From NCBI RefSeq assembly GCF_900129055.1, contig NZ_FQUZ01000029.1, positions 1 through 42,325 of the forward strand: a DNA stretch of 42,325 bases, in the 5' to 3' direction. This document shows, piece by piece, positions 8,469 through 29,694 of the stretch (the first letter of the stretch is position 1; each line of letters opens with the position of its first letter). Below the pieces are notes generated by a model, which saw nothing but the letters and a program-made list of their open reading frames with translations, was not told the DNA's origin and did not search any database. The DNA is from Lampropedia hyalina DSM 16112. GTDB taxonomy: Bacteria; Pseudomonadota; Gammaproteobacteria; Burkholderiales; Burkholderiaceae_C. The translations under genes were made by a program, and so were the position numbers.

Positions 8469-8948
8469 TCAGTAGAAAGAATAGAAACAGCGGAACGGGA
8501 TGTTCTTTTCTGCCCAGAATTCTGCGGCATCGCGGAACACGTCCAGCAGTTGTTCGCGCATTTCCTTGTTGAAGCGTTCGCTGGTGGGAATGTGTTCGAG
8601 CACGACGATGAAACCGGGCTGCTCACCGGCATGCAGCAGGGTGTCGGTCAGGCAGTCGTAGAGGGCATCGAGGTTGCGGCCAAAGTGGGCGGGCAGCAGA
8701 AACTGCTGGCCGGTTTCCGTCAGGATTTGCTGCTTGGTGGTGGCCTGAATCAGATTGGCATAGAGAAAGTGCTGTTGCAGCAGTTGTGCCGCCTGTTGCA
8801 GTTCCGGGGCCTTGAGGGCGCGAATGGACTGGACGATGTTGGTCGGGGTGGCATGGGCGATTTGTTCGGCCAACTCCTCGATTCGGGCATCGGGAGCGGA
8901 AGCGATGGGCGCATCGGCATGGCTTTCTGCTGTGCTGATAGGGGTCAT
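8469..8948 (-). CDS. Barstar (barnase inhibitor)-like protein
   Basis: The 159-residue protein has a C-terminal barstar-like domain (about residues 65-159). It includes GRNLDALYDCLTD, the conserved barstar helix and loop, then GFIVVLEHIP and a terminal FWAEKNIPFRCFYSFY. The first 60 residues are an extra helical region. Barstar blocks its cognate extracellular ribonuclease inside the cell. No barnase-type ribonuclease gene is visible next to it, so its partner is unknown. The family call is firm; the inhibitor function is inferred. Confidence 0.8.
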   Translation of the reverse strand: MTPISTAESHADAPIASAPDARIEELAEQIAHATPTNIVQSIRALKAPELQQAAQLLQQHFLYANLIQATTKQQILTETGQQFLLPAHFGRNLDALYDCLTDTLLHAGEQPGFIVVLEHIPTSERFNKEMREQLLDVFRDAAEFWAEKNIPFRCFYSFY

Positions 8949-20907: not shown

Positions 20908-21909
20908 TCAGATCACCTTTGCACGCATCAGATCACCCACATGGAGGGCCCCAATCAACACATTGCTGCTATCGGTAATCAACAGGCTGGTGATACGGTA
21001 GCGTTCCATCAACTCGGCTGCCTGGGTAGCCATGGCATCGGCCTGAACCGTCTTGGGATACGGATGCATCAAATCCTGTGCCCGCAACTGGCGCAAGTCA
21101 CGCCCAAGCTCCAGATGCCGACGCAGATCACCGTCCGTGAAAATTCCCAGCAAGTGCCGCTGCGCATCCACCACCGCCGTTGCTCCAATTCCCTTGCTGC
21201 TCATCTGTGCCATCAATTCGGCAAAACCGGCATCCGCTGTCACCTGGGGTACCGCATCCCCCGTGCGCATCACATCCCGGACATGCGTCAGTAAACGCCT
21301 CCCCAGTGCCCCTCCTGGATGGGAGCGGGCAAAATCAGCGGGCTGAAAACCCTTGGCATCCAATAGTGCCACCGCCAAGGCATCACCCAATGCCAGTTGC
21401 ACCGTAGTGCTTGCCGTAGGAGCCAGGTTGAGCGGATCAGCCTCCTTGCTGACGCGGCTGTCAAGCACGATATCCGCATACCGGGCCAACGTGGAAGTGG
21501 CTTTTCCGGTCAGCGCAATCAACGGACTGCCCAACCGCTTGAGCACCGGCAAAATATCAATCAACTCCTGCGTCTCACCACTGTTGGAAATAGCCAGCAC
21601 TACATCTTCACGCGTCACCATACCCAGATCACCATGACTGGCTTCTGCCGGATGCACGAACATGGCCGGTGTTCCCGTGGAAGAAAGGGTGGCTGCAATC
21701 TTGCGGCCAATGTGCCCGCTTTTGCCCATACCCATGACCACCACCCTGCCAGTGGATTGCCACAGCAGATGAACGGCCTGGGCAAAGCCATCATCCAGAC
21801 GCGACAACACCGCTTCCAGTTCCTGAATTTCAGTCTGCACGGCCTGCCTTCCCAAGCGACAGGCACGGGCAGCATCAAAACCATCCAAAGGGGTGTTCAC
21901 ATGTTTCAT
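20908..21909 (-). CDS. kdsD: Arabinose-5-phosphate isomerase KdsD
   Basis: KdsD converts ribulose 5-phosphate to arabinose 5-phosphate, the first committed step to Kdo. The 333-residue protein has a SIS sugar-isomerase domain (about 40-170) with VVMGMGKSGHIGRKIAATLSSTGTPA, HPAEASHGDLGM and AISNSGETQE, followed by two CBS domains (about 210-333). It is the first gene of kdsD-kdsC-lptC. Its promoter must lie in or beside the AT-rich DnaA-box region immediately upstream. Confidence 0.95.
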   Translation of the reverse strand: MKHVNTPLDGFDAARACRLGRQAVQTEIQELEAVLSRLDDGFAQAVHLLWQSTGRVVVMGMGKSGHIGRKIAATLSSTGTPAMFVHPAEASHGDLGMVTREDVVLAISNSGETQELIDILPVLKRLGSPLIALTGKATSTLARYADIVLDSRVSKEADPLNLAPTASTTVQLALGDALAVALLDAKGFQPADFARSHPGGALGRRLLTHVRDVMRTGDAVPQVTADAGFAELMAQMSSKGIGATAVVDAQRHLLGIFTDGDLRRHLELGRDLRQLRAQDLMHPYPKTVQADAMATQAAELMERYRITSLLITDSSNVLIGALHVGDLMRAKVI

Positions 21910-21960
21910 CCCGCCATTTTACCGTTGGCAATCTCTTCGCCTCATCACCCATGTGCGCAA

Positions 21961-22195
21961 GCCTGTTGATAACATAAAGAAAAAATGCAATTTATACACA
22001 ACAACAAGTCAAATGCAAAAGTTATGCACATTTCCAGCAAGACCAAAAGCACACTTATTCATGAGTTTTCAAAATCATAAGTAGATGTTTTTTAACAAAA
22101 AAAACTTCTTATTCACAATTCATGCGAGACTCTACTATGACTACTATATTTTTAAATAAACTATAAGATTAAAATAAAGGCAAATTTTTTGTCTG
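21961..22195. other. oriC: Candidate replication origin (oriC-like): DnaA boxes, DnaA-trio, AT-rich unwinding region
   Basis: In an otherwise gene-free 336-bp gap, three exact TTATNCACA DnaA boxes lie in one orientation: TTATACACA (21992-22000), TTATGCACA (22022-22030) and TTATTCACA (22109-22117). TGTTGATAA (21964-21972) is a one-mismatch box in the other orientation. Fourteen bases after the last box comes CTACTATGACTACTAT (22132-22147). Its complement read 3' to 5' is GAT-GAT-ACT-GAT-GAT, the form of the DnaA-trio element that loads DnaA on single strands. Then follow about 45 bp of nearly pure A/T (22145-22190). Box, spacer, trio and AT-rich region in this order match the known basal origin unwinding layout. 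Flanking genes diverge. No dnaA, dnaN or gidA gene is in the window. Confidence 0.72.
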
Positions 22196-22245
22196 TGTAA
22201 AACGTCACTTTGCGGCACAATAAGCGGCTTTTCAAGGAGGCACGA

Positions 22246-22812
22246 ATGGGAAATCGATTGTCCAAAATCACCACCCGCACTGGGGACGATGGCACGACCG
22301 GCTTAGGCAACAACACACGCGTGGCAAAAAATTCCTTGCGTATCCAAGCAATTGGTGATGTGGACGAACTCAACTCTCACATAGGCCTCTTGCTGACGGA
22401 ACCCTTGCCAGAAAACACCCAGTTGCTTTTGCAGCAGATACAACATCAATTGTTCAATCTGGGCGGGGAGTTATCCATGCCCGGATATCAATTGATACAG
22501 GAGGAAGCCCTGCTGGATCTGGAAACAGCGGTGCAGGCACTCAATGCAGACTTGCCCAGCCTGAGGGAATTCATTCTTCCTGCTGGCACGCGTGCAGCGT
22601 CACAGGCTCATGTGTGCCGTACTGTGGCGCGGCGAGCAGAACGCAGTGTGGTCGCAGTCGAGCAGTTGGAAAGCATGCATGGCGTGCCCCGCAAATACCT
22701 CAATCGTTTGTCTGATCTGCTCTTCGTATTGGCGCGTTACCTCAATCTGCACCATGGTGCAGGAGAGGTGTACTGGAAGAGCAAACGCCTGGAAAACGAA
22801 GAAAATTCGTGA
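22246..22812 (+). CDS. pduO: Cob(I)yrinic acid a,c-diamide / cobalamin adenosyltransferase, PduO type
   Basis: This enzyme transfers the adenosyl group of ATP to cob(I)alamin, making coenzyme B12. The 188-residue helical protein has the ATP-binding N-terminus TRTGDDGTTGLGNNTRVAK, GDVDELNSHIGLL, and the C-terminal RRAERSVVAVEQL and YLNRLSDLLFVLARYLN landmarks of the PduO/MMAB type. A strong ribosome-binding site (AGGAGG, 22235-22240) sits 5 bases before the ATG at 22246. No cobalamin riboswitch is seen upstream; the DNA there is the AT-rich origin-like region. Confidence 0.93.
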   Translation: MGNRLSKITTRTGDDGTTGLGNNTRVAKNSLRIQAIGDVDELNSHIGLLLTEPLPENTQLLLQQIQHQLFNLGGELSMPGYQLIQEEALLDLETAVQALNADLPSLREFILPAGTRAASQAHVCRTVARRAERSVVAVEQLESMHGVPRKYLNRLSDLLFVLARYLNLHHGAGEVYWKSKRLENEENS

Positions 22813-22821
22813 AAATGCAGA

Positions 22822-22846
22822 GAATTGCATGTCTTACGTGCAATTC
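22822..22846 (+). other. Hairpin after the adenosyltransferase gene
   Basis: A perfect 8-bp stem, GAATTGCA / TGCAATTC, with a 9-base loop lies 10 bp past the stop. No T run follows, so it is at most a weak terminator or a processing signal. A second arm pair, TTGAGGC (22875-22881) and GCCTCAA (22918-22924), lies ahead of the FKBP gene. Confidence 0.4.
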
Positions 22847-22980
22847 AGATGCTGATGATCGACCTCGTTCTTGATTGAGGCTGACTCCGTATTGGTCGGT
22901 TGTGCATACTGGTCTTTGCCTCAACGCGGCAAGTATCTGGCATTCCCTTTTTACATACTCCACAAGAAAGCTTGTGTTTC

Positions 22981-23439
22981 ATGTCTGCATCTTCTCTTCC
23001 TGTTGTCCAACCAGGTTCATTCTTGACATTGCATTACCGACTCGCAGGCCCTGCGGGGGAGATCGTCAGTACATTTGGAGGTCAGCCTTCCACATTGTCG
23101 CTTGGGGGAGGCCAGCTTTCCCCCGCTCTGGAAGATCGTTTAATCGGATTGCCAGAAGGCACTCACACCACCATCGAACTGGCCCAAAGCGAGGCATTTG
23201 GTGAAAAAAAACCGGAACTGCTGCAATGGGTGGCCCGTACATTGCTGGATGAGATGGGCGATCCTGATCAGGAATACGTCTTGGGTGATGTAGTGCAGTT
23301 CCCGGTGTCCGAGGGCCAGCGTGGCTTCACTGGTGTCGCCTTGCAAGTGCGTGAAGATGGCGCAGTCTTGTTCGATTTCAATCATCCTCTGGCAGGACAT
23401 CCCGTCATATTTGAAGTGAAGTTGATCGGCATCCTCTGA
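22981..23439 (+). CDS. FKBP-type peptidyl-prolyl cis-trans isomerase (SlpA/FkpB-like)
   Basis: The 152-residue protein resembles the SlyD/FkpB class of FK506-binding isomerases, which speed proline isomerisation and act as chaperones. It contains LTLHYRLAGPAGEIVSTFGG, LSLGGGQLSPALEDRLIGLPEGTHTTIEL, EAFGEKKPEL and DFNHPLAGHPVIFEVKLIGI, with the insert-in-flap arrangement. It lacks the histidine-rich tail of SlyD. The ATG at 22981 gives the standard N-terminus. It follows the adenosyltransferase gene on the same strand after 168 bp of leader with possible stem-loops. Confidence 0.9.
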   Translation: MSASSLPVVQPGSFLTLHYRLAGPAGEIVSTFGGQPSTLSLGGGQLSPALEDRLIGLPEGTHTTIELAQSEAFGEKKPELLQWVARTLLDEMGDPDQEYVLGDVVQFPVSEGQRGFTGVALQVREDGAVLFDFNHPLAGHPVIFEVKLIGIL

Positions 23440-23486
23440 AATACAGCCTTCATTGTTGGATGAAGACCGTATCAGGATCGCCATTT

Positions 23487-24146
23487 TCATGATTTGAAGG
23501 GGATTTGAAAGCGTTGCGTCAAGCATGCAATCGCAGATTGGACAGCTGCTTCCAGCGAAGCCAATGTCACAGTCTCGCCATTGTCAATGACCACATCGGC
23601 CATTGCCAAACGCTGTTCCCGGGTGGCCTGGGCCGCAATAATGGCTTCAATTGCTTCTATGCTGAGTTGGTTCCGGGCCTGGACTCGCTGAATCTGGGTG
23701 GCGACTGAACAATCCACCACAATCACGGCATCCAGCTGATGTTGCCAGAAACCGGATTCAACCAATAATGGAATATCCAGCAAAGCAGCATCGTAACCAT
23801 GTTGGGCTGAATCGGTCACCGCTTGCTGGACTTTCTGATGAATCAAGGGATGAATAATCGATTCCAGCTTCTGACGTGCTTCAGAATTTCCAAAAACATA
23901 TTGTCGCATTTTGGTGCGATTCAATGAATGGGTATCCTGTTCTATGAACTCGCAGCCGAAATTTTTCGCAATCGCATCGATGGCATCCCCTCCCGGGGCT
24001 GTTAAGGAATGGGATATGGAGTCAATATCAATTAATGATATATTTTGAAGCTTTATCCATATCTTGGCGACGGTGCTTTTGCCACTGCCAATTCCACCTG
24101 TCAAACCCCAGCAGGGTAGATTGTTTTTTTCAAGAAAAAAGGACAT
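23487..24146 (-). CDS. coaE: Dephospho-CoA kinase
   Basis: CoaE phosphorylates the 3'-hydroxyl of dephospho-CoA, the last step of coenzyme A synthesis. The 219-residue protein has the P-loop GLTGGIGSGKST (14-25), DIDSISH, HPLIHQKV, and LLDIPLLVESG with the family's conserved acidic and aromatic residues. It follows pilD by 3 bp as the last gene of pilB-pilC-pilD-coaE, a common betaproteobacterial and gammaproteobacterial order. The DNA is AT-richer than genes outside this block. Confidence 0.95.
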   Translation of the reverse strand: MSFFLEKNNLPCWGLTGGIGSGKSTVAKIWIKLQNISLIDIDSISHSLTAPGGDAIDAIAKNFGCEFIEQDTHSLNRTKMRQYVFGNSEARQKLESIIHPLIHQKVQQAVTDSAQHGYDAALLDIPLLVESGFWQHQLDAVIVVDCSVATQIQRVQARNQLSIEAIEAIIAAQATREQRLAMADVVIDNGETVTLASLEAAVQSAIACLTQRFQIPFKS

Positions 24147-24149
24147 CTG

Positions 24150-25022
24150 TTATGGAAATTGGTAGAACCATTGGGTTCCTGTTACTGTCACGAATATCCC
24201 TGCTCCACCAAGAAATGGGCCATAAGGCATATAACCCCCTTCACGAAGGTGATTGCGGATTTTCAGAAAAATACCAAATCCGGCACCAATCACTGAGGAT
24301 GCCAGCAATATGGGCAAGATGGCCTGGAATCCAAGCCATGCTCCCAAGGCTGCCAAAAACTTGAAATCCCCATGGCCCATACCTTCTTTCTTGGTGAGTA
24401 GTTTGAAAACCCAGTAGACAGACCATAACGAAAGATAGCCAAACATTGCACCCCATAAAGCATCTTCCAGCCTGGTGTCAATTATCCCCGTCAATGAAAG
24501 CAATAAACCAGCCCATAACAATGGAAGCGTAATATTGTCGGGAAGCAGTGTGGTATCCCAGTCGATCATGATGAGAGTAATCAAGCAGGAAAAAAAGAAG
24601 CACCATGCAATTGCTTCCAGTCCGATGCCCCATTGGTAGCCACAGAACATGAAACTGATTGCAGTTGTGAGTTCAATCAAAGGATAACGTATGCTTATTT
24701 TAGCTTTACAGGAAGAGCACTTCCCTCCCAATAGCAGATAGCTGAAAACCGGTATGTTTTCCCATGGAGAAATAGCATGGCCACAATTCTGACACCGTGA
24801 ACGTGGCGTCATCAGATTGAATGGCTGTTTATGAGATATTTTTATAGAGTTATCGTCTGGAGATTGAACGGCGATGCCTTCGCTTTTCAGAAAATGGATG
24901 CTTTCTTCCTGCCAGTTGCGATGCAGCATAACAGGAAGTCTGTAAATGACCACGTTGAGAAAACTGCCAATCAGTAAGCCAAAAAAACCAAAAACCAATG
25001 GTTCAGCCAGAATTTGTGACAC
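24150..25022 (-). CDS. pilD: Prepilin peptidase / N-methyltransferase PilD
   Basis: PilD cleaves type IV prepilin leader peptides and methylates the new N-terminus at the inner membrane. The 290-residue polytopic protein starts with FGFFGLLIGSFLNVVIYRLP and has the zinc-binding cysteine pairs CQNC and CSSC in the cytoplasmic loop. The two catalytic aspartate regions are MIDWDTTLLPD and GMGHGDFKFLAALGAW. The start is taken as GTG at 25022, one base after the pilC stop, with AGGTGG in the end of pilC as ribosome-binding site; an earlier in-frame ATG at 25082 would overlap pilC. Confidence 0.94.
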   Translation of the reverse strand: MSQILAEPLVFGFFGLLIGSFLNVVIYRLPVMLHRNWQEESIHFLKSEGIAVQSPDDNSIKISHKQPFNLMTPRSRCQNCGHAISPWENIPVFSYLLLGGKCSSCKAKISIRYPLIELTTAISFMFCGYQWGIGLEAIAWCFFFSCLITLIMIDWDTTLLPDNITLPLLWAGLLLSLTGIIDTRLEDALWGAMFGYLSLWSVYWVFKLLTKKEGMGHGDFKFLAALGAWLGFQAILPILLASSVIGAGFGIFLKIRNHLREGGYMPYGPFLGGAGIFVTVTGTQWFYQFP

Positions 25023-25023
25023 G

Positions 25024-26250
25024 TTAAACCACCTGACCGAGCTTGAAGATAGGGAGATACATGGCAACCACAAGGCCACCAATCAACGTACCAAGCACCA
25101 CGATGATGATGGGTTCCAGCAAAGAAGAAAGTCCTTCCACCTTGGTATCCACTTCTGCCTCATAAAAGTCAGCGGCTTTTCCAAGCATATGGTCCAGTGC
25201 ACCAGACTCCTCGCCAATTGCGGCCATCTGTATCACCATCATTGGAAATACATTGGCATTGGTCATGGCGGTTGTGAGACTGATACCTGTTGCTACTTCC
25301 TTCTGGATTGTCTCCGTCGCAGTTTGATAAACATAGTTTCCAGATGCTCCACCGACGGCATCCAGTGATTCAACCAAAGGCACACCTGCTGCAAACATGG
25401 TGGACATGGTACGAGTCCAGCGTGCCACACTGGACATATTGACGAGTTCACCAAAAACGGGTAATCTCAACATGGCTCTATCAACCATATTTTGAATCTT
25501 CTCGCTTCTGCGCCATGCCTGAAAGATAAAGTATCCACCAGCTCCCAAAATAATCGCAATCAACCAGAACCATTTGACAATAAAGTCACTCATATTAATG
25601 ACCAATGTGGTTGGAGCAGGGAGATCAGAGCCAAAACTACTGAAAACTTCTTTGAAGGCAGGAATCACAAACAACATAATAACGGTCAAAACCAGAGCAG
25701 CCACAATCATGACTGCTACTGGATACATCAAGGCTGATTTGATTTTTGACTTGATGGCTTCCATTTTTTCCATATATGTAGCAAGACGATCCAATAAGTC
25801 TTCCAGAATACCTGCCGCTTCTCCTGCTTCCACCAAATTACAATATAGATTGTCAAAATAAAGAGGATATTTTCGAAAGGCGGCACTCAAGGAGCTGCCG
25901 GTTTCCACATCTGCCTTGATATTGTTAAGCAAACGGGTCACACTTGGGTTTGGGTTGCCTTTTGCAACAATATCGAATGCTTGTAGCAGTGGAACGCCGG
26001 CACGCATCATGGTGGAAAGTTGCCGTGTGAATATGGCAATGTCTCGGCCTTTTATTTTTTTTCCGGTTTTCAGTCGTTGGCGTTTGATTTTGTTTGCCAA
26101 GATTCCTTGACGGCGTAAACTAGAGCGAACCTGGTTTTCTCCAGCAGCATTCATTTCTCCTCTTATCGTGCGGCCATTGCGGTCTTTTCCTTCCCATTGA
26201 TAAAGATAGTCTTTGACTTTATTGGATGTTTTTGAACTGAGGGTGGCCAT
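25024..26250 (-). CDS. pilC: Type IV pilus inner-membrane platform protein PilC
   Basis: PilC is the inner-membrane platform that couples the PilB and PilT motors to pilin assembly. The 408-residue GspF-family protein contains WEGKDRNGRTIRGEM, FTRQLSTMMRAGVPLLQAFD, two homologous cytoplasmic domains (about 75-190 and 280-390), and membrane segments VAVMIVAALVLTVIMLFVIPAF, FWLIAIILGAGGYFIF and IIIVVLGTLIGGLVVAMYLPIF. It lies 29 bp after pilB and one base before the pilD start, so the genes are co-transcribed. Confidence 0.95.
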   Translation of the reverse strand: MATLSSKTSNKVKDYLYQWEGKDRNGRTIRGEMNAAGENQVRSSLRRQGILANKIKRQRLKTGKKIKGRDIAIFTRQLSTMMRAGVPLLQAFDIVAKGNPNPSVTRLLNNIKADVETGSSLSAAFRKYPLYFDNLYCNLVEAGEAAGILEDLLDRLATYMEKMEAIKSKIKSALMYPVAVMIVAALVLTVIMLFVIPAFKEVFSSFGSDLPAPTTLVINMSDFIVKWFWLIAIILGAGGYFIFQAWRRSEKIQNMVDRAMLRLPVFGELVNMSSVARWTRTMSTMFAAGVPLVESLDAVGGASGNYVYQTATETIQKEVATGISLTTAMTNANVFPMMVIQMAAIGEESGALDHMLGKAADFYEAEVDTKVEGLSSLLEPIIIVVLGTLIGGLVVAMYLPIFKLGQVV

Positions 26251-26279
26251 GGTATGGGGTCCTGGGATTTAAATGGTAT

Positions 26280-28007
26280 TTATGCGTTGGTAACAGCCAG
26301 AACTTCTTCCAATGAAGTAGTGCCAGCCTTTATTTTTTGCAAGCCTGATTGCCGCAAGGTACGTACCCCTTCCTTGATGGCTTGTTTTTCGATTTCGATT
26401 GAAGATCCATCGCGTAAGATGATACGCTGTATTTCTTCACTGATGGGCATGACCTGATAGATACCGACGCGCCCTTTATAGCCGTTGTTACAGGCTGAGC
26501 AGCCTACTGCTTTATATGGAGCCCAGCTGCCATCCAGATCTTCGTAATCAAACCCTGCATCAATCAATGCTTCCATTGGAATATCTGCGACTTCTTTGCA
26601 TTCTTTGCAAAGTCTACGGGCCAACCGTTGTGCTGTGATCAGAATGACACTGGATGCAATATTGAATGGTGCGATTCCCATATTTCGTAGACGGGTCAGT
26701 GTGGTTGGTGCATCATTGGTGTGTAGAGTAGATAGAACCATGTGACCTGTTTGTGCAGCTTTGATCGCAATGTCGGCTGTTTCAAGGTCTCGAATTTCAC
26801 CAACCATGATGATGTCGGGATCCTGACGTAAAAAAGATTTCAATGCTGCTGCAAAGGTCAATCCCGATTTTTCATTGACATTCACTTGATTGACACCAGG
26901 GAGATTGATTTCAGACGGATCTTCTGCTGTGGAAATATTGACCCCAGGTTTATTCAAAATATTCAAGCATGTGTATAGAGATACGGTTTTGCCTGAGCCT
27001 GTGGGTCCGGTAACCAGGACCATTCCATAAGGGCGTTCGATGGCAGTGAGCAAACGATTTTTTTCGATGGGTTCATATCCTAGCGCATCAATTCCGACTT
27101 TGGCACTGCTGGAGTCCAATATACGAATAACAATTTTTTCTCCGAATAAGGTGGGTAGTGTACTGACACGAAAATCAATCGATTTTCCACCGATTTTCAT
27201 TTTCATTCTTCCATCTTGAGGAATTCTTTTTTCAGAAATATCAAGGCGTGAAATAACTTTGATGCGTGAAGCCAGTTTCTCTTTGATGGCTACAGGAGGA
27301 TTGGCATGTTCCTGTAGCTCCCCGTCTATCCGAAACCTGATGCGGTAATTGAATTCGTAAGGTTCGAAGTGAAGGTCGGATGCTCCCATTTTGTAGGCAT
27401 CGACAATCATTTTTTGTAGAAACCGTACCACCGGGGCATCATCCGCATCGACTTGGTCCGAATCTTCCTCTTCCTGGTTGGATGTTGCTATAGCAAGCTC
27501 ACCGAATTCAAAGTCATCCGATGGTGCATCCTGCGCATAGGATTTCCCGATACTGTCTAGGATGGCTGTGATTTTCGGAAGCTCGACCACGACCCATTCC
27601 ACAGGTGTCTGGGTAGCAAATTTTATTTTTTCAGCTACATCCCGGTTGGTGGGGTCTGCTGAAGCCACAATCAGGCGATTGGGACGCTTTCCCAGTACCA
27701 CGACTCGATAGGAAAGACAGAGTTTATGTTCAAGTAAATTTTGTGGGAGTCGCAGGGCATCGACGGCAGAGAGGTCAAGGTAAGGGACATCAAAAACTTC
27801 TGAAATGGTTTGCGCCAAGTCGCCTGCACTGAGAAATTTTTCTTCTAGGGCGATATCAATGAACTCTTTTTTTTCTTTCTGCATTTGTTGCAGAATTTGC
27901 AGAACCTGTTGTTCCGTGAGTTTCTGTGCCGCAATCAATGCACGCGCAATGCTGGGTACGATGGGAGTCGGAACTGATTTTTTTTTGCTGATATCTTCGC
28001 TTGCCAT
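26280..28007 (-). CDS. pilB: Type IV pilus assembly ATPase PilB
   Basis: PilB is the hexameric ATPase that drives pilus extension. The 575-residue protein has an N-terminal MshEN/GSPII_E-N region, ASDLHFEPY with arginine-rich RIRFRIDGEL, Walker A GPTGSGKT, an Asp box (NISTAEDP), Walker B DPDIIMVGEIRD, a His box, and a C-terminal zinc motif CKECKE...CSACNN. The true start is the ATG at 28007. It heads the pilB-pilC-pilD-coaE operon. No pilin gene is in the window. The GC content counted by hand over 26701-26940 is about 43%, well below the flanking genes. Confidence 0.96.
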   Translation of the reverse strand: MASEDISKKKSVPTPIVPSIARALIAAQKLTEQQVLQILQQMQKEKKEFIDIALEEKFLSAGDLAQTISEVFDVPYLDLSAVDALRLPQNLLEHKLCLSYRVVVLGKRPNRLIVASADPTNRDVAEKIKFATQTPVEWVVVELPKITAILDSIGKSYAQDAPSDDFEFGELAIATSNQEEEDSDQVDADDAPVVRFLQKMIVDAYKMGASDLHFEPYEFNYRIRFRIDGELQEHANPPVAIKEKLASRIKVISRLDISEKRIPQDGRMKMKIGGKSIDFRVSTLPTLFGEKIVIRILDSSSAKVGIDALGYEPIEKNRLLTAIERPYGMVLVTGPTGSGKTVSLYTCLNILNKPGVNISTAEDPSEINLPGVNQVNVNEKSGLTFAAALKSFLRQDPDIIMVGEIRDLETADIAIKAAQTGHMVLSTLHTNDAPTTLTRLRNMGIAPFNIASSVILITAQRLARRLCKECKEVADIPMEALIDAGFDYEDLDGSWAPYKAVGCSACNNGYKGRVGIYQVMPISEEIQRIILRDGSSIEIEKQAIKEGVRTLRQSGLQKIKAGTTSLEEVLAVTNA

Positions 28008-28157
28008 CAATATTTCCTTCAGGATGTTTGCAAAATAGCTGGTTTTGCAGAGAGCGAGAGAACGAATGGAGTTGTGGTGAAATTTAACTTCATATTGAAT
28101 GGATGTTTTGCTCGTTGTTTTTAATAAATGATGTAAAGTTGGTTGAAATAGTGTTTT

Positions 28158-28889
28158 TTAGGCTGTGACAGATGCGATACAGGGTTTATGATGCAATTGA
28201 GATAATCCAAGAATTTTAGAGCCATGTACATGTTTGGTTGCCACTAAAAAATAAATTCCTCCCCATACACACCACCTGGATGTAACAAAATGATCTATCC
28301 ATTGTAAGTGCCTAATCCAGCTGGCCCGTTGAAAACCTGGCAGGCAGCATCCTGTATGCAGGCGGTTGATTTCGTAGCCCAATGGGCGCAGCCAATTGCG
28401 AACCTGCAAGGGGCTAACGGATGATCCCCAATGCAATTCATGATGGCCAGGACGAACTCCCCAGATTCGAAGCGGATTGAAGCCACTGATGATCAGGCGG
28501 CCTTCAGGGCGAAGTATGCGGTTCGCTTCCTGCAAGGTGTAGTGAGGTCGCTTGTTGGCCTCCAGTGTGTGGGGTAACAGAACCAGATCGAATTGCTCTG
28601 TGGCAAATGGCAGTGCTTCTGTATGCGCGACCAGTGCCGGAAAAGATGTCGATGTGCCAGGGGGATCAGGTGGCTTGGTGGTGGCGTCAGGATTCTGGCT
28701 TGTCACCCAGGCGTGGAGGATGCGGCTGTGGTGCAAGCCCCCAATGCTGGGTGTGCCAAGTTGCAGGGCACACTGACCGAAGATGTTCGGCACGACTTCA
28801 TCATATTGCTGTTGTTGCCAAGCCAAGGCATAGCGTCCTGCTGGGGTATTGGTGAACCAGTCATCCAAATTTATAATCGCAGAGGTCAT
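28158..28889 (-). CDS. SAM-dependent methyltransferase, class I
   Basis: The 243-residue protein resembles the short methyltransferases found next to gloB in many proteobacteria. It has DDWFTNTPAGRYALAWQQQQYD at the N-terminus, ALPFATEQFDLVLLPHTLE (motif after the SAM site) and RILRPEGRLIISGFNPLRIWG. The usual glycine-rich SAM motif I is poorly conserved (FGQCALQLGTPSIGG). The substrate is unknown. The ATG at 28889, with GGAG about 9 bases upstream, shares bases with the start of gloB on the other strand. The C-terminal 40 residues are not recognised. Confidence 0.8.
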   Translation of the reverse strand: MTSAIINLDDWFTNTPAGRYALAWQQQQYDEVVPNIFGQCALQLGTPSIGGLHHSRILHAWVTSQNPDATTKPPDPPGTSTSFPALVAHTEALPFATEQFDLVLLPHTLEANKRPHYTLQEANRILRPEGRLIISGFNPLRIWGVRPGHHELHWGSSVSPLQVRNWLRPLGYEINRLHTGCCLPGFQRASWIRHLQWIDHFVTSRWCVWGGIYFLVATKHVHGSKILGLSQLHHKPCIASVTA

Positions 28890-29694
28890 GAATGCCAAAC
28901 TCCAAATTCAGGCCGTTGCTGCACTCCATGATAACTACATCTGGCTTTTGCACGATGGGCAAAATGCACTGGTCATTGATCCTGGTGAAGCCAGGCCGGT
29001 TTTGCATGCGCTGGAGCAGCAGAATCTGGCGTTGCAGGCTGTGCTGGTGACTCACCACCACCACGATCATACCGGGGGCATTGCTGCATTGCAGCAGGTG
29101 TTCAGGAATTTGGCAGTGTATGGTCCATCACGGGAGCGTCTTCCGGTGCCGTTCGAGGGCTTGGCCGAGGGCGATGTGCTGGATGTGTTGGGAGTGCATT
29201 TTGCTGTGTTGGATGTGCCTGGCCATACCCAGGGACACATTGCGTTCCATGCGGATTGCACGGGTTCCAATCGGGAGCGTCTGGACGCTCCGCTGTTGTT
29301 TTGTGGAGATACCCTTTTTTCGGCAGGTTGTGGCCGCTTGCTTGAAGGCTCTGCAGAGCAAATGCTGCACTCGTTGCAGAAATTGATGAGACTTGCACCG
29401 GAAACGCTGGTGTATGGTGGTCATGAGTACACGCTGGAGAATCTGCGTTTTGCCCTCGTGGTGGAGCCGGACAATGATGCGTCAAGCAACTATTTGTTGC
29501 ATTGTCGATCTCTGCGTGATCGGGGCTTGCCCACATTGCCTTCCTCGCTGGAACGGGAATTGCAGGTGAATCCTTTTTTGCGAATCCATTGGCCTTCGGT
29601 GCGGGATCGTGTATCAGAGCGTTTCAGTAGCTCCATGCCATACGATGATATGGCTGTTTTTGCCGCCCTGCGTGAATGGAAAAACAATTTTTAG
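28888..29694 (+). CDS. gloB: Hydroxyacylglutathione hydrolase (glyoxalase II)
   Basis: GloB hydrolyses S-lactoylglutathione to lactate and glutathione, the second step of methylglyoxal detoxification. The 268-residue metallo-beta-lactamase-fold enzyme has THHHHDHTGG (55-64), VPGHTQGH, FCGDTLFSAGCGRLLEG and YGGHEYTLENLRFA, which supply the dinuclear metal ligands. The length is typical. Its ATG at 28888 overlaps the divergent methyltransferase start within a single CATG. Confidence 0.96.
   Translation: MNAKLQIQAVAALHDNYIWLLHDGQNALVIDPGEARPVLHALEQQNLALQAVLVTHHHHDHTGGIAALQQVFRNLAVYGPSRERLPVPFEGLAEGDVLDVLGVHFAVLDVPGHTQGHIAFHADCTGSNRERLDAPLLFCGDTLFSAGCGRLLEGSAEQMLHSLQKLMRLAPETLVYGGHEYTLENLRFALVVEPDNDASSNYLLHCRSLRDRGLPTLPSSLERELQVNPFLRIHWPSVRDRVSERFSSSMPYDDMAVFAALREWKNNF

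Follow-up and report, generated by a model that had tools for sequence, protein, structure and literature searches.

The window analysed here is a stretch of 42,325 nucleotides, positions 1-42325 of contig C21 in a draft genome (G000) of 3,184,472 bases in 58 contigs. It contains two divergent genes, kdsD and a pduO-type cobalamin adenosyltransferase gene, which are separated by a gap of 336 bp with a GC content of 0.35 overall and of 0.14 in its AT-rich stretch (Table 1). The kdsD of the window is 63-69% identical to those of the 80 kdsD loci compared. Three exact DnaA boxes, a near match, a DnaA-trio-like array and AT-rich DNA had been described in this gap by an initial annotation of the sequence, and all were confirmed where it had placed them.

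Table 1 Features of the kdsD/pduO gap and its flanking genes (positions in the window).
Feature	Position	Strand	Remarks
kdsD (arabinose-5-phosphate isomerase)	20908-21909	-	Directed away from the element; TIGR00393 (KpsF/GutQ) above cut-off
R3-like weak DnaA box TTGCGCACA, two mismatches	21952-21960	-	R2 lies 70 bp further, a spacing as in six same-genus modules
Near-match DnaA box TTATCAACA, one mismatch	21964-21972	-	
Exact DnaA box TTATACACA	21992-22000	+	Extra box, absent from the module pattern of relatives
Model R1 match	22015-22157	+	40.5 bits; sole match reported in the genome
R2, exact DnaA box TTATGCACA	22022-22030	+	TTATCCCCA in six same-genus modules
Two-mismatch DnaA box TTATTCATG	22055		
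R1, exact DnaA box TTATTCACA	22109-22117	+	Box adjoining the trios
Spacer between R1 and trios, 14 nt	22118-22131	+	Equal length in the nine relative modules printed
DnaA-trio-like array CTACTATGACTACTAT	22132-22147	+	CTA CTA TGA CTA CTA T; opposite strand 3'-GAT GAT ACT GAT GAT
AT-rich stretch, putative DNA unwinding element	22140-22189		14% GC; assigned from sequence only
Near-match DnaA box TTTTACACA, one mismatch	22194	-	
pduO-type cobalamin adenosyltransferase gene	22246-22812	+	Directed away from the element; TIGR00636 above cut-off, PF01923

Elsewhere in the window, GC content falls from 0.64 to 0.44 over 22000-29000, across coaE and pilD-pilC-pilB-like genes, and then rises again. An nhaA-I riboswitch (Rfam RF03057) was found at 2862-2918 on the - strand, with a Na+/H+ antiporter gene (1488-2843, -) directly downstream, matching the name of the riboswitch family. 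A gene with a Barstar domain (PF01337) lies at 8469-8948 (-).

The three boxes TTATACACA, TTATGCACA and TTATTCACA are the sole exact matches to TTATNCACA in the window, all on the + strand and inside 126 bp. Three exact boxes compare with 0.70 expected in the window, and 3 of 100 whole-window shuffles also had three. When a stretch of 346 bp was shuffled 20,000 times with dinucleotides preserved, two exact boxes occurred in five shuffles and three in none. The initial annotation had expected one exact box per 33 kb per strand by chance. This figure needs correction, as a motif with eight fixed bases is expected once in 65.5 kb on each strand of random DNA and 33 kb is the value for both strands together; the actual density is one per about 110 kb (29 exact TTATNCACA in the genome). 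Same-strand exact pairs with a gap of 5-80 bp are formed in this genome only by the three window boxes, and an inverted exact pair, 14 bp apart, lies at C25:97444/97458. The DnaA-box cluster in the gap exceeds chance.

A second AT-rich group of DnaA boxes, with two exact and three one-mismatch sites, was observed at C48:35917-36125 (L220 7918-8126), where it precedes a response-regulator gene assigned through Pfam; this group is possibly a DnaA-control site. Same-strand exact pairs within 80 bp were found in 21 of 60 genomes. Because of the C48 group and these pairs, box counting alone fails to single out the window. In a relative, G007, three exact boxes in AT-rich DNA lie at C8:220617-220727, on another contig than the origin module of that genome; the skew around them remains mostly negative, and they are probably no origin.

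Homology to a module of related genomes, unlike box counting, does single out the window. Acidovorax, Polaromonas, Ramlibacter, Rhodoferax, Variovorax and Comamonas, all genera of the Comamonadaceae, are among the titled records closest in kdsD, and we therefore take the host to be a member of this family. In same-genus relatives the module runs from R3 (-) over 70 bp to R2 TTATCCCCA (+), over 88-89 bp to R1 TTATCCACA (+) and over 14 nt to TTACTACTAC or CTACTACTAC, which contain the CTA trios, followed by AT-rich DNA. The complete spacing was found in six same-genus modules (two in G002, two in G006, one each in G005 and G007), the R3 position of G005 and G007 being TTGTGCACA. In G003 and G004 the R1 box, the spacer and the trios are all present and R2 is weaker, and G003 has TTACTACTATGACTACTT where the window has CTACTATGACTACTAT.

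The window follows this order of parts, with 70 bp from the R3-like box at 21952 to TTATGCACA, 87 bp (88-89 in the six same-genus modules) to TTATTCACA and 14 nt to CTACTATGACTACTAT. The 14-nt spacer, the trios, the AT-rich flank and an R3 70 bp before R2 are common to the window and the family module (G002-G009, G012, G013, G027 and others). The window differs in the boxes themselves, with R1 TTATTCACA and R2 TTATGCACA in place of TTATCCACA and TTATCCCCA. It also has an additional exact box, its trio run breaks one trio earlier, its neighbouring genes are different, and it is present as a single copy. Similarity was weak in plain nucleotide comparison: blastn of G005 against the window gave 53 bp at 74% (E 3e-4), and a search of 100 genomes with the gap DNA returned its own genome and short matches only, with E <= 1 in 51 of the 100 and a best match outside G000 of 23 bp (E 2e-4).

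A sequence-only model, model R1, was built from an alignment of 10 relative modules with the window excluded; the modules came from G002 (two), G003, G004, G005, G006 (two), G007 and G027 (two), and those of G008 (cut by N) and G009 did not enter the alignment. Model R1 gave one match in the 3.18-Mb genome, at C21:22015-22157, with an E-value of 5.2e-10. In this whole-genome search 50 of 542 first-look candidates were scored under strict filters, and a second, weaker copy could therefore have been overlooked. Across 14 pieces of the genome (292,378 bases, window included, with some overlap) both matches lay in the gap, at E 4.7e-11 and 4.9. A profile of the same alignment scored the gap at 29.2 bits, compared with 8.7 bits for the best of 5000 gap shuffles; elsewhere in the genome it gave 2.8 bits for the C48 group and 0.9 bits upstream of dnaA, with no hit in the C34 group or the dnaA-dnaN gap.

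The gene neighbourhood itself is not conserved. No kdsD was found in 29 pduO loci of relatives (flanks of about 1.5 kb or less), no pduO in 80 kdsD loci (flanks of up to 6 kb), and no module at E <= 0.1 by model R1 in these 109 loci, so that the kdsD/pduO junction was seen only in G000. The assembly is a draft and may contain a wrong join. A reading in which relatives lack the boxes, which had considered exact boxes at the same locus only, was dropped when the module was found at other loci. Conservation of the boxes in relatives, which the initial annotation had proposed as a check, holds for the boxes, spacing and trios as a module and fails for the kdsD/pduO locus.

The arrangement resembles the basal unwinding system (BUS) of the Bacillus subtilis type, described in PMC8287927 as a DnaA box, a spacer and DnaA-trios; the search rule of that paper calls for three or more 3'-NAN trios in succession, no further than 16 nt from a DnaA box. 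Likewise, the window has a box, a spacer of 14 nt (16 or less in the rule), 3'-GAT trios and then AT-rich DNA. It differs from this system in lying outside the dnaA region and in its broken trio run, with two GAT, one ACT and two GAT after the spacer of 14, so that three consecutive trios are not present. At least three uninterrupted trios were counted in all nine relative modules printed with the window, a list to which G007 does not belong.

Turning to dnaA, the gene lies on contig C55 (L115 6618-12183), preceded by a DsbD-type gene and followed by dnaN and a gyrB-like gene; rpmH is on C32 and gidA on C34. Among 30 rpmH loci read in relatives dnaA adjoins rpmH in 24, and in G000 the two genes are separate. 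The other six loci reach the end of the record (G013, G024 and G042) or have dnaA on another contig (G025 and G032) or 90 kb off (G050); in G004, outside these 30, dnaA and rpmH are on different contigs. Of the 24 dnaA-rpmH gaps that could be read in relatives, 22 contain an exact box, and such a box upstream of dnaA is expected for dnaA self-control. An oriC at dnaA was rejected for G000, where the intergenic stretch before dnaA contains one exact box and one near match and the dnaA-dnaN gap has no box at up to one mismatch. The box groups on C48 and C34 were rejected as origins since neither matches model R1.

Cumulative GC skew, another check proposed in the initial annotation, agreed with an origin in the gap on one side only. 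Right of the element, 12 of 16 genes had the expected positive skew at fourfold sites, so the right arm fits. On the left arm this skew was negative in only 6 of 16 genes, and the window skew was positive over most of 1-15 kb. The cumulative minimum of the window, in the bin of 24-27 kb instead of at 22 kb, was displaced rightward from the element by 2-5 kb, in a draft of 58 contigs. A recently moved left arm would explain this ragged skew.

In G027 (main contig 5.45 Mb) cumulative GC skew over 400 kb was lowest in the bin 2505-2510 kb, with modules at 2495813 and 2507272 and dnaA at about 2627-2629 kb, 120-130 kb off. Mean skew in this genome was -0.036 over 100 kb leftward, -0.033 between the modules, +0.028 from the modules to dnaA and +0.003 past dnaA. 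Its modules are flanked by pduO (left) and kdsD (right), pointing outward as they do at much shorter range in the window, and their orientation relative to the two genes is the reverse of that in the window. In G003 the module, near 971.5 kb, marks a turn in skew from -0.013 to +0.043, and the skew is negative on both sides of dnaA. None of six same-genus relatives showed a minus-to-plus turn across dnaA within the 4-9 kb read on each side. The remaining genomes varied: a shallow minimum lay close to the module in G005 and a minimum some 6-11 kb off the module in G007, the stretch right of the modules was skew-positive throughout in G002, no turn was seen in 20 kb around the modules of G006, and G024 had no clear minimum at either dnaA or its weak module.

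Taken together, we assign a probability of about 0.9 to the 336-bp kdsD/pduO gap being the chromosomal replication origin (oriC) of this genome, a reading strongly supported by its homology to the origin module of relatives. The gap has the R2-R1-trio-AT-rich homology of a Comamonadaceae-type module with spacings of 87 and 14, a box cluster beyond chance and, judged on sequence, an AT-rich element beside the boxes.

Among the alternatives, the one that survives best is a DnaA-titrating or DnaA-reactivating site (datA/DARS) or a DnaA-controlled divergent promoter, with the true origin elsewhere, either near gidA and parS on C34 or on C48; we consider it unlikely. The boxes do sit between two divergent genes, and the AT-rich box group on C48 offers another candidate. 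In 8 of 9 same-genus relatives no more than about 13 kb separates gidA from the best module; in G001 the two are on different contigs. In G000 five perfect parS sites, TGTTTCACGTGAAACA, surround gidA at C34:36349-39804, with none on the contig of the window, and would be at least some 43 kb from the element even with C34 and C21 as neighbours. The skew of C34 turns positive near 15 kb, and three box-like sites lie at C34:20843-20999. Against this, model R1 matches the window and neither C34 nor C48, and the window has the unwinding half of an origin (spacer, trios and AT-rich DNA). A titration site would not need this half, datA/DARS-type sites being defined by DnaA boxes without an unwinding element. 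Since it is also conserved in relatives, a pure titration site, which the initial annotation had offered as an alternative, is improbable.

There is a still smaller chance that the gap is a second or former copy of the origin, either duplicated or relic, and that replication starts from another copy that has diverged. At least two matches to model R1 at E <= 1e-5 were found in 15 of the 36 genomes of the family set (G000-G035), and the trio run of the window is imperfect; the single match among the candidates scored in G000 and the presence of all core parts argue against this. An integrated plasmid- or phage-type origin, the former also suggested initially, is highly improbable and was rejected: GC content does drop to 0.44 just right of the element, but neither the 72,556 plasmid records nor the 50,697 phage records gave a match at E <= 0.01, and the nearby genes with family hits are of ordinary chromosomal kinds and include neither a replication gene nor an integrase gene (several open reading frames had no hit).

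If the gap is oriC, DnaA would bind R1, R2 and the further boxes, and from R1 a DnaA filament would cross the 14-nt spacer to reach the trios, which read CTA on the + strand and 3'-GAT on the opposite one. This filament would open the adjacent AT-rich DNA, in which the helicase would be loaded, and two forks would depart, one along kdsD and one along pduO. The module probably reached the kdsD/pduO gap by rearrangement or transfer, because the modules of the relatives examined lie elsewhere and the junction was seen only here.

The oriC of Escherichia coli lies beside gidA/mioC. An origin distant from dnaA is already known in principle: PMC4285127 places the E. coli oriC outside the dnaA gene cluster, a likeness to the window in position. 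For chromosome 1 of Cupriavidus metallidurans CH34, part of PMC2864759 describes a skew switch about 90 kb from dnaA that adjoins 213 nt with three perfect DnaA boxes, and mentions no trios; this is another genus and another gene context. According to PMC4285127, members of a genus or species keep the same genes around oriC, and an origin of Acidovorax citrulli M6 was predicted with OriFinder (PMC6595937).

To place the origin of G000 in its family, model R1 was searched in the 36 family genomes and matched 35 of them at E <= 1. At E <= 1e-3 it matched 33; as seven genomes among these supplied the model, independent matches at this level remain in 26 of 29. Over 60 genomes (G000-G059) it matched 47 at E <= 1. 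Among 23 titled genomes taken from the 80 kdsD loci, all had a match at E <= 0.01 and 22 at E <= 1e-4.

The module starts within about 150 bp downstream of dnaA in 8 of the 36 family genomes (G010, G011, G014, G015, G020, G023, G026 and G028); six of these loci were read and have the flanks of a dnaA-dnaN group, with dnaN confirmed through Pfam in G026. It lies elsewhere in 25, on the same contig as dnaA at about 20 to 630 kb in 10 and on another contig in 15, which in draft genomes gives no distance from dnaA. The remaining three gave no match (G017) or weak ones (G030 and G033). Neither these counts nor C. metallidurans CH34 bear out the initial view that betaproteobacteria with a dnaA-distant origin are unusual. 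Five order-level genomes (G038, G048, G051, G052 and G056) have a match just downstream of dnaA, at E 1e-5 to 1.4e-3, which suggests that this place is probably the ancestral address of the origin. When the best 30 loci (28 from the family, with G038 and G042 from outside it) were linked by any common flanking protein, they fell into 15 gene contexts; seven loci have dnaA and dnaN in common, and the context of G000 stands alone.

Multiple modules lie 0.3-35 kb apart if on one contig, often in the same direction. Examples are G027 at 2495813 and 2507272, G002 at C25:546 and 1061, Acidovorax temperans at C4:16106 and 16589, and G012 with three copies. Two matches were found in 8 of the 23 titled genomes, 0.43-0.53 kb apart in five and 0.76, 4.4 and 23.5 kb apart in the rest. 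This raises the question of whether such modules are paired or bipartite origins.

We give roughly even odds to a wider picture of oriC in this family, in which a compact module has left the dnaA-dnaN gap, has moved repeatedly over tens to hundreds of kb and has often been duplicated, so that related bacteria differ in the address of their origin and many may have two. G000 would then have a single copy at an address that none of the relatives examined shares, and its dnaA, rpmH and gidA are dispersed over other contigs. A search of mostly open-access literature brought up no paper in which oriC is repeatedly relocated or duplicated within the Comamonadaceae, which is weak evidence of novelty. 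The relocation and duplication across the family is a more interesting result than the element alone, and one for specialists to test. One module can be traced through 15 contexts among 30 loci; several of these contexts occur in one genus, and two or three copies of the module are frequent. Such variation is a natural experiment for asking which surroundings an origin requires, what happens to gene dosage in its vicinity, and whether a pair of modules represents two origins or a single bipartite one. Model R1 is also a practical aid for placing origins in draft genomes where dnaA misleads.
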